This document shows, one piece after another, positions 6,823 through 24,190 of a stretch of DNA of 39,591 nucleotides. The number at the start of each line of letters is the position of its first letter. The first letter of the stretch is position 1. A model generated the notes under the pieces. That model did no database searches and was not told the DNA's origin. It was given only the letters and a program-made list of their open reading frames with translations. The translations under genes were made by a program, and so were the position numbers. The DNA is taken from assembly GCA_016650365.1 (NCBI GenBank), contig JAENVV010000063.1, positions 1 through 39,591 on the forward strand, given 5' to 3'. The DNA is from Acidimicrobiia bacterium. Lineage in GTDB: Bacteria > Actinomycetota > Acidimicrobiia > Spongiisociales > JAENVV01.

Positions 6823-7326
6823 TTGAACGATCAAATTATCATCGGCCACGTCGCCAGAGCCCACGGGCTCAAAGGGGACGTGGCCGTTGTCTTCTATTCG
6901 GATCATCCTGAACAGTTCAGACCCGGATTTCAGTTCGGTGGCACCACCGGACCCTTCACCATTGAACGGGTTCGAACCGGCGCCGGGGTCTTCCTTATCA
7001 AGTTTGCCGAAGTTTCCGACCGGAATACCGCTGAGCTGATGCAAGGCGTCCAATTGACCATGACCGAGTCTCATCTGCGTGAATTGGACGAGGGGGAGTA
7101 TTGGCCATCCCAGCTGACGGGATTGGAAGTTCGTGACCCCTCGGGCGCTCGGAGGGGTGAGATCATCGAAGTTGTCACAGGTGGAGCGCAAGACCGGTTG
7201 GCGATCCAGGTTGCCGATGGCCGGGTCGAGGTTCCGTTTGTCGACGCGTTGGTGCCAACCGTCGACATCGAAGGAGGCTTCGTGATTGTCGAGGCCATTG
7301 CGGGCCTACTCGACATCGGTGAGTGA
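6823..7326 (+). CDS. rimM: Ribosome maturation factor RimM
   Basis: It binds uS19 and assists maturation of the 30S head. At 167 residues it begins NDQIIIGHVARAHGLKGDVAV, the standard N-terminal beta-barrel signature, and ends in a PRC-barrel domain (YWPSQLTGLEV, then RLAIQVADGRVEVPFVDALV). The best start is TTG 6823, 25 nt after khpA, with a poor SD; no in-frame ATG is suitably placed. Unlike many genomes, trmD does not follow: it lies about 8.3 kb downstream beyond an accessory block. Confidence 0.96.
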   Translation: MNDQIIIGHVARAHGLKGDVAVVFYSDHPEQFRPGFQFGGTTGPFTIERVRTGAGVFLIKFAEVSDRNTAELMQGVQLTMTESHLRELDEGEYWPSQLTGLEVRDPSGARRGEIIEVVTGGAQDRLAIQVADGRVEVPFVDALVPTVDIEGGFVIVEAIAGLLDIGE

Positions 7327-7331
7327 GTCGC

Positions 7332-7592
7332 CTAGTGGGGATGCTTGTTGAGAACGGTCAGCAAGCCGGCAACTCCGCCGTAAAACCCACCACCAACAAT
7401 CGCTACCCAGATTGATGTAACGAGGGCTTGGCCGAGACTCAGATGAGCGCCGAAGAACATCATCGCGAAGAAGACCATGAACGTGGTCGGGGTTCCGATG
7501 AGGAACCCGACTTTCAACGCCTTGCTCATTTGAGCTGAATTGGTGGCGTCCTGGGCGTCTTTGTCGAGCTGGTCGGTCGATGTATCAGTCAC
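7332..7592 (-). CDS. Small two-helix membrane protein, function unknown
   Basis: I do not recognise a family. The product has 86 residues: about 24 polar, acidic residues, then two hydrophobic segments, roughly 28-48 (VGFLIGTPTTFMVFFAMMFF) and 54-80 (rich in Gly), and a short basic tail ending NKHPH. The composition indicates an inner-membrane protein with both ends probably cytoplasmic. The start is GTG 7592, with a perfect TATAAT ending 7 nt upstream, so the mRNA may be leaderless. It converges on rimM with a 5-bp gap. Confidence 0.7.
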   Translation of the reverse strand: MTDTSTDQLDKDAQDATNSAQMSKALKVGFLIGTPTTFMVFFAMMFFGAHLSLGQALVTSIWVAIVGGGFYGGVAGLLTVLNKHPH

Positions 7593-7599
7593 GCCCTGG

Positions 7600-7605
7600 A
7601 TTATA
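7600..7605 (-). promoter_or_regulatory. Consensus -10 box for the small membrane protein
   Basis: A perfect TATAAT on the minus strand ends 7 nt before GTG 7592. No SD site is present, so initiation at the 5' end of the mRNA is likely. A -35 is not obvious. Confidence 0.5.
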
Positions 7606-7646
7606 TGCAGGTCGTGATGGCGTTTAGTTCATCTTGGCAGGCCGAC

Positions 7647-7652
7647 TAGCGT
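7647..7652 (+). promoter_or_regulatory. Weak candidate -10 box for cofG
   Basis: TAGCGT ends 7 nt before the in-frame GTG at 7660. If this box is real, cofG starts at 7660 rather than at GTG 7651, which overlaps it. Confidence 0.25.
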
Positions 7653-8796
7653 GAGGACCGTGCATCCCGGTCCTGACCCAGAACTTGCCATTGCCTATCT
7701 CGACGGTACGGTTGGTGCCGATCCCCTGTTTGTCGAGGCACGACGATTGCGTGATGAGGGGAAGGGGCGGATCGTCACATACTCGCCAAAAGTCTTTATT
7801 CCTTTGACCACGATGTGTCGGGACCAGTGCACGTACTGCACATTCGTCAAACCTCCCGGAAATGGGGGGGAATATCTCACACCAGACGATGTGCTTGCAA
7901 TCGCCCTGGCCGGTGACCGCCATGGATGTACCGAAGCCTTGTTCACATTGGGCGATGCGCCAGAAGACAAATACCCGGCCGCCAGAGAGTTCCTGGCGTC
8001 GGTCGATTGCACGACGACCATGGACTATGTCGTGGCGATGACTGAACGAGTTCATGCGGAAACCGGGCTCTTTCCCCATGCCAATCCCGGGGTGATGGCT
8101 GAGAATGCGGTGGCCCGGTTACGGCGATCGAATCCCTCCATTGGACTGATGCTCGAGAACATTTCGCCCCGACTTACCGAACCCGGAATGCCCCACTTCA
8201 ACTGCCCCGATAAAGTGCCAGCTGTCAGAGTTGCCACAATCGAAGCGGCCGGACGCCAGAAGGTTCCATTCACGTCCGGGATTCTGGTTGGAATCGGCGA
8301 GACCAACGCTGAGATCGTAGATTCGTTGTTTGCCCTTGCCGACTTGCAGAGCCGCTGGGGGCATATCCAGGAGGTCATCATCCAGAACTTCCGGGCGAAG
8401 GCTGATACTCGCATGCGGTTCGGTGCCGAGCCGATCCCGAGTTGGTTTGCCAGGGTGGTAGCACTTGCTCGCTGGATCATGGGTCCGACCATGAACGTTC
8501 AGGTTCCGCCGAACCTGACCGAACGGTATGAGACGTACCTTGAGGCAGGAATCAACGATTGGGGTGGGGTTTCGCCCTTGACGATCGACTGGGTTAACCC
8601 CGAAGCGCCCTGGCCTCATCTGGCTGATCTCACCGCACGGACCACGGCGGCCGGCTTTGAGCTTCGGTCCCGGCTACCGGTCTACCCCGAATACATATCC
8701 GACGGTTGGCTTGACGCCGCGGTCCTGACGAAGGTCCGGGAGGCCACCACCGACGATGGGTACGGACATACTCCACAATTGGCCGAGAAAGGTTAG
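7651..8796 (+). CDS. cofG: 7,8-didemethyl-8-hydroxy-5-deazariboflavin (FO) synthase subunit 1, CofG
   Basis: A radical-SAM enzyme that, with CofH, makes FO, the chromophore of coenzyme F420. The cluster motif CRDQCTYC gives Cys56, Cys60 and Cys63. Downstream are FTLGDAPEDKYP, HANPGVM and the radical-SAM barrel, with SGILVGIGET near residue 212. In mycobacteria and streptomycetes CofG and CofH are usually fused as FbiC; here CofG ends with its own stop and CofH follows after 9 bp. The start is uncertain: GTG 7651 (381 aa) or GTG 7660 (378 aa), neither with an SD site. Confidence 0.95.
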   Translation: MRTVHPGPDPELAIAYLDGTVGADPLFVEARRLRDEGKGRIVTYSPKVFIPLTTMCRDQCTYCTFVKPPGNGGEYLTPDDVLAIALAGDRHGCTEALFTLGDAPEDKYPAAREFLASVDCTTTMDYVVAMTERVHAETGLFPHANPGVMAENAVARLRRSNPSIGLMLENISPRLTEPGMPHFNCPDKVPAVRVATIEAAGRQKVPFTSGILVGIGETNAEIVDSLFALADLQSRWGHIQEVIIQNFRAKADTRMRFGAEPIPSWFARVVALARWIMGPTMNVQVPPNLTERYETYLEAGINDWGGVSPLTIDWVNPEAPWPHLADLTARTTAAGFELRSRLPVYPEYISDGWLDAAVLTKVREATTDDGYGHTPQLAEKG

Positions 8797-22014: not shown

Positions 22015-22043
22015 TTGACATTCAGCCAGTTCCTGGCCACTAT
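22015..22043 (+). promoter_or_regulatory. Candidate promoter of the aroG attenuator
   Basis: A perfect TTGACA (22015-22020) lies 3 bp after the dprA stop. CACTAT (22038-22043) follows at 17 bp, matching the -10 consensus weakly. The start would be near 22050, just before the leader-peptide ATG at 22052, so the peptide may be translated from a leaderless mRNA. Confidence 0.5.
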
Positions 22044-22051
22044 GCCATGCG

Positions 22052-22108
22052 ATGACTGTTGCTTGGTTTAGCCAGGACTATTTTTTTGGCCCCTCGGGGT
22101 CGAAGTAG
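22052..22108 (+). CDS. Aromatic-rich leader peptide of the aroG attenuator
   Basis: An 18-codon ORF, MTVAWFSQDYFFGPSGSK, ends in TAG. It has one Trp (codon 5), three Phe (6, 11, 12) and one Tyr (10), the end products of the pathway that DAHP synthase opens. It lies directly upstream of the DAHP synthase gene and its last codons form one strand of the antiterminator. Ribosome stalling at the aromatic codons would free that strand. This is the classical logic of amino-acid attenuation, inferred from sequence alone. Confidence 0.75.
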   Translation: MTVAWFSQDYFFGPSGSK

Positions 22109-22145
22109 TCGCGTTTAGCCATCGCACGAGAACTTCGACCCCGAG
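22093..22145 (+). promoter_or_regulatory. Antiterminator pairing of the aroG attenuator
   Basis: 22093-22106 (CTCGGGGTCGAAGT) is exactly complementary to 22132-22145 (ACTTCGACCCCGAG), a 14-bp perfect stem. Its 3' strand includes 22140-22145, the first six bases of the terminator stem, so the two structures exclude one another. Its 5' strand ends on the first base of the leader-peptide stop codon, where a terminating ribosome would cover it. Confidence 0.7.
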
Positions 22146-22166
22146 CCGCTGGCTCGGGTTTTTTTT
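22140..22166 (+). terminator. Intrinsic terminator of the aroG attenuator
   Basis: CCCGAGCC (22140-22147) pairs perfectly with GGCTCGGG (22151-22158) around a GCT loop and is followed by eight T (22159-22166). It lies 34 bp before the aroG start and after the leader peptide. Confidence 0.9.
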
Positions 22167-22200
22167 GCGCCGAGCGGCTCACACTGGAAGGCAGCTCTAG

Positions 22201-23268
22201 ATGACCGACAATCCAATTGTGATACCGACCTCGGTAGACGACACCCATATCAAGGAAATCGCCGCGTTGAAGCGGCCATCTCAGCTCAAACTTGAGATTC
22301 CCAACCGGTCCGAGAGCCTTGTGGCCGACTCCCGCCAGGCGATCGCAGACATTCTCCACGGTCGAGACACCAAGCGGCTTGTCGTGGTCATCGGACCATG
22401 TTCGATTCACGACGTCGAGGTTGCCGCCGAATACGCCGACAAGCTCATGGCGCTGAGAACCCGTTACGCCGATGAGCTACTGATCGTTATGCGTACCTAC
22501 TTCGAAAAGCCCCGGACCACGGTGGGGTGGACAGGATTGGTTTATGACCCACAACTGGACGGATCCGAAGATATCCCGACAGGCATCGAAGTATCCAGGC
22601 GTTTGCTTCAAACGATCAACGACATGGGCATGCCATGCGCAGTCGAGCTACTCGACCCGATCACTCCGCAGTACTTCGCCGACTTCCTGTCGTGGGCGGC
22701 GATCGGTGCCAGAACCGTCGAAAGTCAGGTTCATCGCCAGCTGGCGAGCGGTATGTCAGCTCCGATCGGTTTCAAGAACTCAACCGACGGTCGGGTCGAC
22801 GTCGCCGTTCATGCCATGAAGGCTGCCGAACGTTCCCATAGTTTCTTCAGCGTCAATTTCGAGGGTCAGCTCGCCATGGTGCGAACCAACGGCAACCCCG
22901 ATACCCATATTGTTCTTCGGGGCGGAGCCGGCGGGCCGAACTATGACGCGGCGGCCGTGAAGGATGCGGTTGCTCGAGGCAAGGCGCAAGGAATCGAGCG
23001 TCCGGTGATGGTCGATTGTTCTCATGGCAATTCGAAGAAGGATCACCGACGCCAACCGATCGTCGCCGATGAGGTGTTACGCCAATTCAAGTCTGGCCAG
23101 AACGGCATCATGGGCCTGATGGTTGAAAGTCACATAAACGCCGGCCGGCAGGACTGGGCGCCGGATGTAAAGCTCGACCATGGCGTGTCGATCACCGATG
23201 CTTGCATCGGGTGGGATGACACGGACCTACTCCTGGAGAAGGCTGCCAAAGTCGTTGCGGGTCGTTGA
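22201..23268 (+). CDS. aroG: 3-deoxy-7-phosphoheptulonate (DAHP) synthase, type I
   Basis: It condenses PEP and erythrose 4-phosphate, the first step of the shikimate pathway. At 355 residues it is of the AroF/G/H class. RLVVVIGPCSIHD contains the metal-ligand Cys, followed by MRTYFEKPRTTVGWTGL (PEP binding), GFKNSTDGR, VDCSHGNSKKD (ligand His), LMVESHINAG (ligand Glu) and SITDACIGWDD (ligand Asp). GGAAGG lies about 9 nt before ATG. Expression appears controlled by the upstream aromatic attenuator. Which amino acid inhibits the enzyme allosterically cannot be told here. Confidence 0.96.
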   Translation: MTDNPIVIPTSVDDTHIKEIAALKRPSQLKLEIPNRSESLVADSRQAIADILHGRDTKRLVVVIGPCSIHDVEVAAEYADKLMALRTRYADELLIVMRTYFEKPRTTVGWTGLVYDPQLDGSEDIPTGIEVSRRLLQTINDMGMPCAVELLDPITPQYFADFLSWAAIGARTVESQVHRQLASGMSAPIGFKNSTDGRVDVAVHAMKAAERSHSFFSVNFEGQLAMVRTNGNPDTHIVLRGGAGGPNYDAAAVKDAVARGKAQGIERPVMVDCSHGNSKKDHRRQPIVADEVLRQFKSGQNGIMGLMVESHINAGRQDWAPDVKLDHGVSITDACIGWDDTDLLLEKAAKVVAGR

Positions 23269-23299
23269 CCCCATCGGCTGGGGCAGCGAGGATGGGGCG

Positions 23300-24190
23300 G
23301 TGGTCCAAATACCTGATCCGCCCGCTTGGGCGCTTGATTCATTCGAACGGTACCTCGTTCGTCTAAAGGTCCAACGAGGATTGTCACCTCACTCGATCGC
23401 CGCATACCGACGAGACATCAGTCAATTCTTGGCCTTCTGTGACCGAGGGTCCATCCAATCCCTTGCTGAAATCGATCGGCGCTTCATACGACGTTTCCTG
23501 GCCTACCTCGACACCCTCGGTTATGCCCGGGGGAGTATTCGCCGCAAATCATCGTCGGTGAAAGGCTTTTTTGCCGATCTGGCTTTGCGTGGGGAAATCC
23601 CCAGTAACCCGGCCCAGCAACTTGCCAGGACGAAGACTCCTCAAAGACTGCCCAAAGCGCTACCACAGCGGGCGGTCGCCGAGTTCATTGAGGCAATCGA
23701 CGGCGACGAACCGATTGAACTGCGTGATCGGGCCATCCTCGAGACGTTGTATGCCACCGGGCTACGGGTCTCCGAGCTGGCCTCGTTGACGACGTCCATC
23801 GGGGGAGCAGACACCGTGACCGTGCGCGGTAAGGGCAACAAGGACCGGGTTGTTCCGATCGGCGGACCGGCTGTGCGAAGCATCGAACGATGGCTCGCCA
23901 AAGGACGCCCGCGGATGGTTGGATCGGTTCAGAACGATGCTCTCTGGATAGGTATTCGAGGAAGATCCCTCGATCCACGAGGTATACGGCGTATCATCCA
24001 GCAACGTGCGGGAACCTTCCCGCACGCACTGCGCCACTCGTTCGCGACGCATCTCCTGGAAGGAGGAGCAGATCTACGTGCTGTGCAGGAAATGTTAGGG
24101 CACGTTGAATTGGCGACCACGCAGCTTTACACTGCGATAACTCGAGACCACCTCAAGGCGACATATGAGCGAAGCCACCCGCGGGCATAA
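23300..24190 (+). CDS. xerC: Tyrosine recombinase XerC
   Basis: It resolves chromosome dimers at dif during division. GTG 23300 gives 296 residues with GAGGA about 7 nt upstream; an in-frame extension to 23180 would lie inside aroG. The N-terminal SAM-like core-binding domain has FERYLVRLKVQRGLSPHSIAAYRRDI. The catalytic domain has ATGLRVSELASL (Arg I), GKGNKDRVVPIG (Lys), FPHALRHSFATHLLEGG (HxxR), MLGHVELATTQLYT (His and nucleophile Tyr). Position before whiG is as in other Actinomycetota. XerC rather than XerD is from context; the partner is not in the window. Confidence 0.9.
   Translation: MVQIPDPPAWALDSFERYLVRLKVQRGLSPHSIAAYRRDISQFLAFCDRGSIQSLAEIDRRFIRRFLAYLDTLGYARGSIRRKSSSVKGFFADLALRGEIPSNPAQQLARTKTPQRLPKALPQRAVAEFIEAIDGDEPIELRDRAILETLYATGLRVSELASLTTSIGGADTVTVRGKGNKDRVVPIGGPAVRSIERWLAKGRPRMVGSVQNDALWIGIRGRSLDPRGIRRIIQQRAGTFPHALRHSFATHLLEGGADLRAVQEMLGHVELATTQLYTAITRDHLKATYERSHPRA

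Follow-up and report, generated by a model that had tools for sequence, protein, structure and literature searches.

Here, we analysed a 39,591-nt stretch of DNA (39.6 kb, referred to as the window) and found, upstream of the DAHP synthase gene aroG, a conserved leader which very probably constitutes a classical ribosome-mediated transcription attenuator of this gene. Its anatomy comprises the complete classical set of a 1:2 protector, a 2:3 antiterminator and a 3:4 terminator, and the attenuation reading gains support because aroG encodes the committed step of the pathway that fits the leader codons. Conservation and folding argue that Tyr10-Phe11-Phe12 is the sensor and that the switch would read the charging of Tyr- and Phe-tRNA, not that of Trp-tRNA. 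The following features were located:

22015–22020, plus strand: TTGACA as −35 box of the leader promoter, the same in each of the five genus genomes
22038–22043, plus strand: CACTAT as −10-like box at a distance of 8 nt from the leader ATG, with sequence and spacing unchanged across the five genomes
22052–22108, plus strand: leader ORF MTVAWFSQDYFFGPSGSK with its stop, 18 codons from ATG (22052) to TAG (22106–22108), predicted to be leaderless
22076–22110, plus strand: protector hairpin 1:2, the early-transcript fold in all five genomes, joining the control codons to the antiterminator strand
22079–22087, plus strand: control codons Tyr-Phe-Phe (TAT TTT TTT), base-invariant in all five genomes; in folding, a stall here frees segment 2
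22093–22106, plus strand: segment 2, antiterminator 5' strand, CTCGGGGTCGAAGT, 14 bp perfect with 22132–22145
22132–22145, plus strand: segment 3, antiterminator 3' strand, ACTTCGACCCCGAG, complement of 22093–22106
22140–22158, plus strand: perfect 8-bp intrinsic terminator hairpin 3:4, 8/8 pairs invariant
22159–22166, plus strand: terminator U-tract of eight T, invariant in all five genomes
22201–23268, plus strand: aroG, type I-alpha DAHP synthase, 355 aa (TIGR00034 aroFGH, 459 bits, cut-off 173)

Leader architecture

The 18-codon peptide named in the original prediction is encoded exactly at 22052–22108, and 5 of its 18 codons specify aromatic residues. CACTAT at 22038–22043 is a weak −10 box, scoring under the threshold of a sigma-70 consensus scan, and its distance to the leader ATG amounts to 8 nt throughout the genus; the promoter spacer likewise keeps its length of 17 nt in 5/5 genomes while its letters have diverged. 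No Shine-Dalgarno sequence was seen upstream of the ATG at 22052, either in the window or in the genus genomes. We infer from this arrangement that the transcript begins at the leader ATG or 1–2 nt upstream of it, and the idea of a leaderless leader mRNA, put forward from the window alone, is well supported by conservation and geometry.

Segment 2 contains the last leader codons and the first base of the stop codon, so that the predicted overlap of the leader stop with the antiterminator 5' strand is present but is confined to a single base, 22106. Its 14-bp pairing with 22132–22145 is confirmed by perfect complementarity. Equally present is the perfect 8-bp terminator with its eight T, located between leader ORF and aroG, and since the six bases 22140–22145 are common to antiterminator and terminator, the two helices are mutually exclusive. 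All sequence statements of the original prediction were thus correct, while the protector hairpin had been overlooked. This hairpin consists of a core (22085–22092/22097–22104) and a lower stem (22076–22081/22105–22110), and in folding it pairs TAT TTT TTT GGC CCC with the antiterminator strand itself.

Chance expectation and conservation

A search of both strands of the window for perfect terminators of 7 bp or more with a T-run yields this one alone. Aromatic leader, antiterminator and terminator occur in combination once in the window and not at all in 312 Mb of simulated sequence, generated as a first-order Markov chain with the composition of the window. On folding, the antiterminator alone (22093–22150) reaches −32.2 kcal/mol with z = −5.5, compared to z = −3.6 for the full leader and z = −3.8 for the protector.

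Within its order, type I-alpha AroG is restricted to this genus (five genomes, 1 of 61 genera), which limits direct comparison of the leader to these five. Their leader peptides read MTVAWFSQDYFFGPSGSK, MNIAWFSADYFFGPSGSK, MTVAWFSADYFFGPSGSK, MNVARFSTRYFFGPKGSK and MNVARFSSYYFFGPTGSK, and leader, control codons, promoter spacing and all three helices are kept in every one of them. Only 1 of 42 stem columns is variable versus 24 of 66 other transcript positions (Fisher p = 1.5e-5, a guide only, since the five genomes are related and their alignment columns hence not independent), and at fourfold-degenerate sites of aroG 118 of 152 vary. The 8 pairs of the protector core are invariant, as are 10 of the 14 antiterminator pairs (95.7% of cells paired). 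Two of the genomes have a shorter antiterminator of about 11–12 pairs, with a G–U pair and mismatches at its end. Covariation in the stems, which had been suggested as a check, was looked for in the five genomes and is absent: no helix of the three contains a compensatory pair, because the genomes are too close to each other in these nearly invariant stems. Support for the helices is therefore constraint, not covariation.

At the level of the peptide, the start, the stop, F6, Y10, F11 and F12 are invariant in 5/5 genomes, and the N-terminal half is variable. Conservation of the aromatic codons, also suggested as a check, accordingly holds for F6, Y10, F11 and F12 and fails for Trp5, which two genomes have replaced by Arg. 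Constraint extends to codon choice, with TAT and TTT control codons free of any base change in all five genomes, and with Phe always written TTT in the leader as opposed to aroG, which prefers TTC (36:4).

Conservation of an ORF with its control codons also speaks against a T-box or a metabolite-binding riboswitch in control of aroG, a possibility raised by the presence of alternative hairpins in the 5' region of a biosynthetic gene and one whose probability we regard as close to negligible. In Rfam, no family reached its gathering score in the window (the best weak matches, at E ≥ 0.39, fall far under the cut-offs), no leader family of the trp/phe type matched it, and the scan of 18 related loci returned neither a relevant family nor an attenuator match.

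A second reading concerns the product of the leader. Rhizobial TrpL is known as a short trans-acting RNA or peptide, and the terminated transcript of about 115 nt, structured and conserved as it would be, could in principle be the main product here, too. In C. glutamicum, accumulation of short attenuator transcripts has been described (PMC4046766). We nevertheless consider a chiefly trans-acting role very unlikely, given the variable N-terminal half of the peptide and the fact that attenuation in cis covers all conserved features.

Ribosome position and amino-acid sensing

For the cis-acting attenuator, we propose the following sequence of events. The promoter at 22015–22043 would start a leaderless transcript at the leader ATG or 1–2 nt before it. 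Under a shortage of charged Tyr-tRNA or Phe-tRNA, the ribosome would stall on Tyr10-Phe11-Phe12 and break the 1:2 hairpin, leaving segment 2 free to pair with segment 3, so that the terminator is blocked and aroG transcribed. With both tRNAs charged, the ribosome would proceed to the stop codon and cover segment 2, allowing 3:4 to form and transcription to end at the U-tract. Without translation, 1:2 would form first and 3:4 would then terminate.

This scheme was evaluated by ribosome-occupancy folding, in which covered bases are blocked and pairing probabilities are calculated per stall codon, under the assumption that the 3' edge of the ribosome lies 15 nt beyond the first base of the P-site codon. 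Upon stalling at any of Tyr10, Phe11 and Phe12, little or nothing of the protector remains and the antiterminator strand is free, and as long as arm 4 is not yet made, the antiterminator forms with about 10–14 expected pairs. With the ribosome anywhere from codon 15 to the stop, the antiterminator drops to 0 pairs and the terminator forms with 7.8–8.0 of 8 pairs. The outcome is near-identical across all five genomes. In the naked early transcript the protector forms in 5/5 genomes, and the minimum-energy structure of the naked full transcript is protector plus terminator, again in 5/5. The originally predicted logic, in which stalling favours read-through and completed translation favours termination, is hence well supported by conservation and geometry. 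At equilibrium, with segment 3 made and arm 4 not, 2:3 outcompetes 1:2 in the majority of these genomes, even when the ribosome is still at the start codon. Default termination would therefore depend on the kinetics of folding and transcription.

It had been proposed that one peptide senses all three aromatic end products, and for Trp this claim is not borne out. Codon 5 is Trp in three of the five genomes and CGG (Arg) in the other two (G004 and G002), and this codon is situated too far upstream for a stalled ribosome to open the protector: a stall at Trp5 in the genome of the window leaves the protector of the early transcript intact, with 13.9 expected pairs; Trp sensing is therefore disfavoured. 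In its favour, an upstream stall also permits 2:3 pairing in equilibrium folding, and aroG leaders of other taxa do have Trp adjoining Tyr and Phe. Set against the constancy of Y10, F11 and F12 in all five genomes, sensing of Trp by the same attenuator nonetheless appears unlikely.

Genomic context

A GGAAGG motif lies upstream of aroG, and relatives of AroG in the PDB are DAHP synthases annotated as Phe- or Tyr-sensitive. The genome encodes a second DAHP synthase, of type I-beta, which adjoins prephenate dehydrogenase; a third match to PF00793, the DAHP synthase/KDO8P synthase family, resides on contig C5 of this genome (G000; 7124–7840, L088). No combination of aromatic leader and terminator was found there upstream of the type I-beta gene, nor upstream of trpE or pheA.

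The hairpin sits about 130 bp past the dprA stop in the right orientation, so that hairpin and T-run might do no more than terminate dprA, with the small ORF present by chance. We regard this explanation as highly improbable, since it would leave aside the conserved promoter, ORF and competing helices that lie between dprA and the hairpin, as well as the constraint on codon choice and stems. Moreover, in a genome from another family of the order, dprA is directly followed by xerC, with neither terminator nor leader, and the sequence found around the aroG stop, GGTCGTTGACC, recurs there between the two genes. We infer that leader and aroG entered the space between dprA and xerC together, and that the terminator did not originally belong to dprA.

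In the AroG tree, the genus adjoins Nitriliruptorales. Co-transfer of the leader along with aroG was considered as well and is unsupported, as the nearest AroG relatives, from Nitriliruptorales and Nitrospirota, are without aromatic leader and terminator.

Downstream, in the window at 23200–24190, xerC follows within about 35 nt of aroG and itself overlaps whiG, and neither a promoter nor a terminator is predicted on the plus strand between the three genes. In this genus, control by the aroG attenuator may thus reach as far as xerC and whiG.

Relation to known attenuators

Of the known systems, the AroR attenuator of C. glutamicum aroF comes closest, described as a Phe-Tyr-Phe leader with read-through on Phe limitation (Neshat et al. 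2014, doi 10.1016/j.jbiotec.2014.05.033, via PMC11802643 and PMC4046766). Both systems place adjacent Phe and Tyr codons (FYF in AroR, YFF here) before a DAHP synthase gene, a likeness drawn from the description of the peptide and the gene context. They differ in peptide and in Actinomycetota lineage, and the AroR effect was measured in C. glutamicum, in contrast to the effect proposed here from sequence. With the classical attenuators of the Yanofsky type (trpL, pheL and the pheST leader), our leader has protector, antiterminator, terminator and control codons in arm 1 in common; unlike in these, the leader ORF is predicted to be leaderless and both the gene and the control codons are others.

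The uORFC-13-1 motif before aroF, a sequence-based proposal from 2021 for Acholeplasma and environmental sequences only (PMC8632094), likewise combines a Phe-codon uORF and a terminator before a DAHP synthase gene. Its uORF has an RBS and stems from an unrelated taxon (PMC8632094), whereas no Shine-Dalgarno precedes the leader described here, which we consequently do not assign to that motif. Leaderless leader peptides are on record for Streptomyces lividans (trpL1, ilvL, leuL) and C. diphtheriae (ilvB) (PMC8079986, PMC5784534). These resemble the present case, where the same is predicted, in having the ORF at the transcript 5' end in an Actinomycetota host, but concern other amino acids and other genes, and the S. 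lividans leaderless list is without a Phe/Tyr leader (PMC8079986, PMC5784534). A comparative study of Actinobacteria from 2005 found no conserved RNA structure before phenylalanine/tyrosine operons (PMC1262725). The open-licence papers searched report neither an attenuator from this lineage nor the betaproteobacterial leaders described below.

Related DAHP synthase loci

We further surveyed 117 loci picked by AroG similarity alone, scoring a leader when at least 4 aromatic residues fell within 8 codons and a terminator lay within 90 nt. Aromatic leader and terminator were found at 16 of the 117 loci versus 0.12 expected from shuffles, the 16 not being independent lineages (five are the genus of the window and two are near-identical Ralstonia); in the control, 1 of 2472 other windows of the surveyed loci qualified. 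Positive loci include Ralstonia (MSFAKFFYFYFWHLAPLAEGEGRLQQK), Azohydromonas, Malikia, Thiobacillus, a myxococcal MAG and several Actinomycetota. A 7–8 bp helix between leader and terminator arm was obtained for five of the Burkholderiales leaders tested (shuffle p 0.01–0.04); for the remaining leaders outside the genus, p ranged from 0.09 to 0.40. On the AroG tree, the leader label changes at least 4 times, and together with the Nitriliruptorales neighbours lacking such a leader this suggests convergence as opposed to shared descent with aroR.

Several groups of leaders stand out individually. Betaproteobacterial aroG leaders (L034, L039, L041, L042, L048, L058, L059, L079 and L082) are very rich in aromatic residues, e.g. 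MRFARFFFGFYWFSHRPGGGEARA, and mostly feature strong terminators and short antiterminators; no Rfam attenuator match was found among those scanned. In the Actinomycetota loci L121, L142, L144, L118 and L140, a Tyr-Trp-Arg-Phe or Trp-Tyr-Ala-Tyr-Phe core recurs, so that these leaders could sense Trp besides Phe and Tyr. Loci L105, L106 and L107 carry the leader MNVRFYYFIRRALRRDGPAGGVHPA and a 13-bp terminator about 260–290 nt upstream of the part with homology to DAHP synthase, a distance possibly due to an N-terminal extension of the gene. Regions upstream of more distantly related DAHP synthases, taken from small actinobacterial genomes, were mostly without a leader.

Discussion

Taken together, the evidence makes a convincing case for a conserved attenuator of known type, with a mechanism that is well supported at the sequence level. 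Attenuation by amino acids at the entry step of the shikimate pathway would thereby reach beyond Corynebacterium, and the leader offers a natural example in which conservation and geometry separate true control codons from incidental aromatic ones. The survey suggests that attenuators of DAHP synthase genes are common and were gained repeatedly.

A broader picture can be offered only tentatively, and as a whole we hold it to be possible but doubtful: aromatic attenuators would have arisen several times upstream of type I-alpha DAHP synthases in Actinomycetota, Betaproteobacteria and Myxococcota, with a taxon-specific response to Phe/Tyr or to Phe/Tyr/Trp, and in the present genus the cassette would have been inserted into the dprA-xerC-whiG cluster. 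If this is true, aromatic amino acids would, through the insertion, control both XerC, a recombinase, and WhiG, a sigma factor. For aroG, the predicted role of the attenuator is to turn the gene down when phenylalanine and tyrosine suffice.
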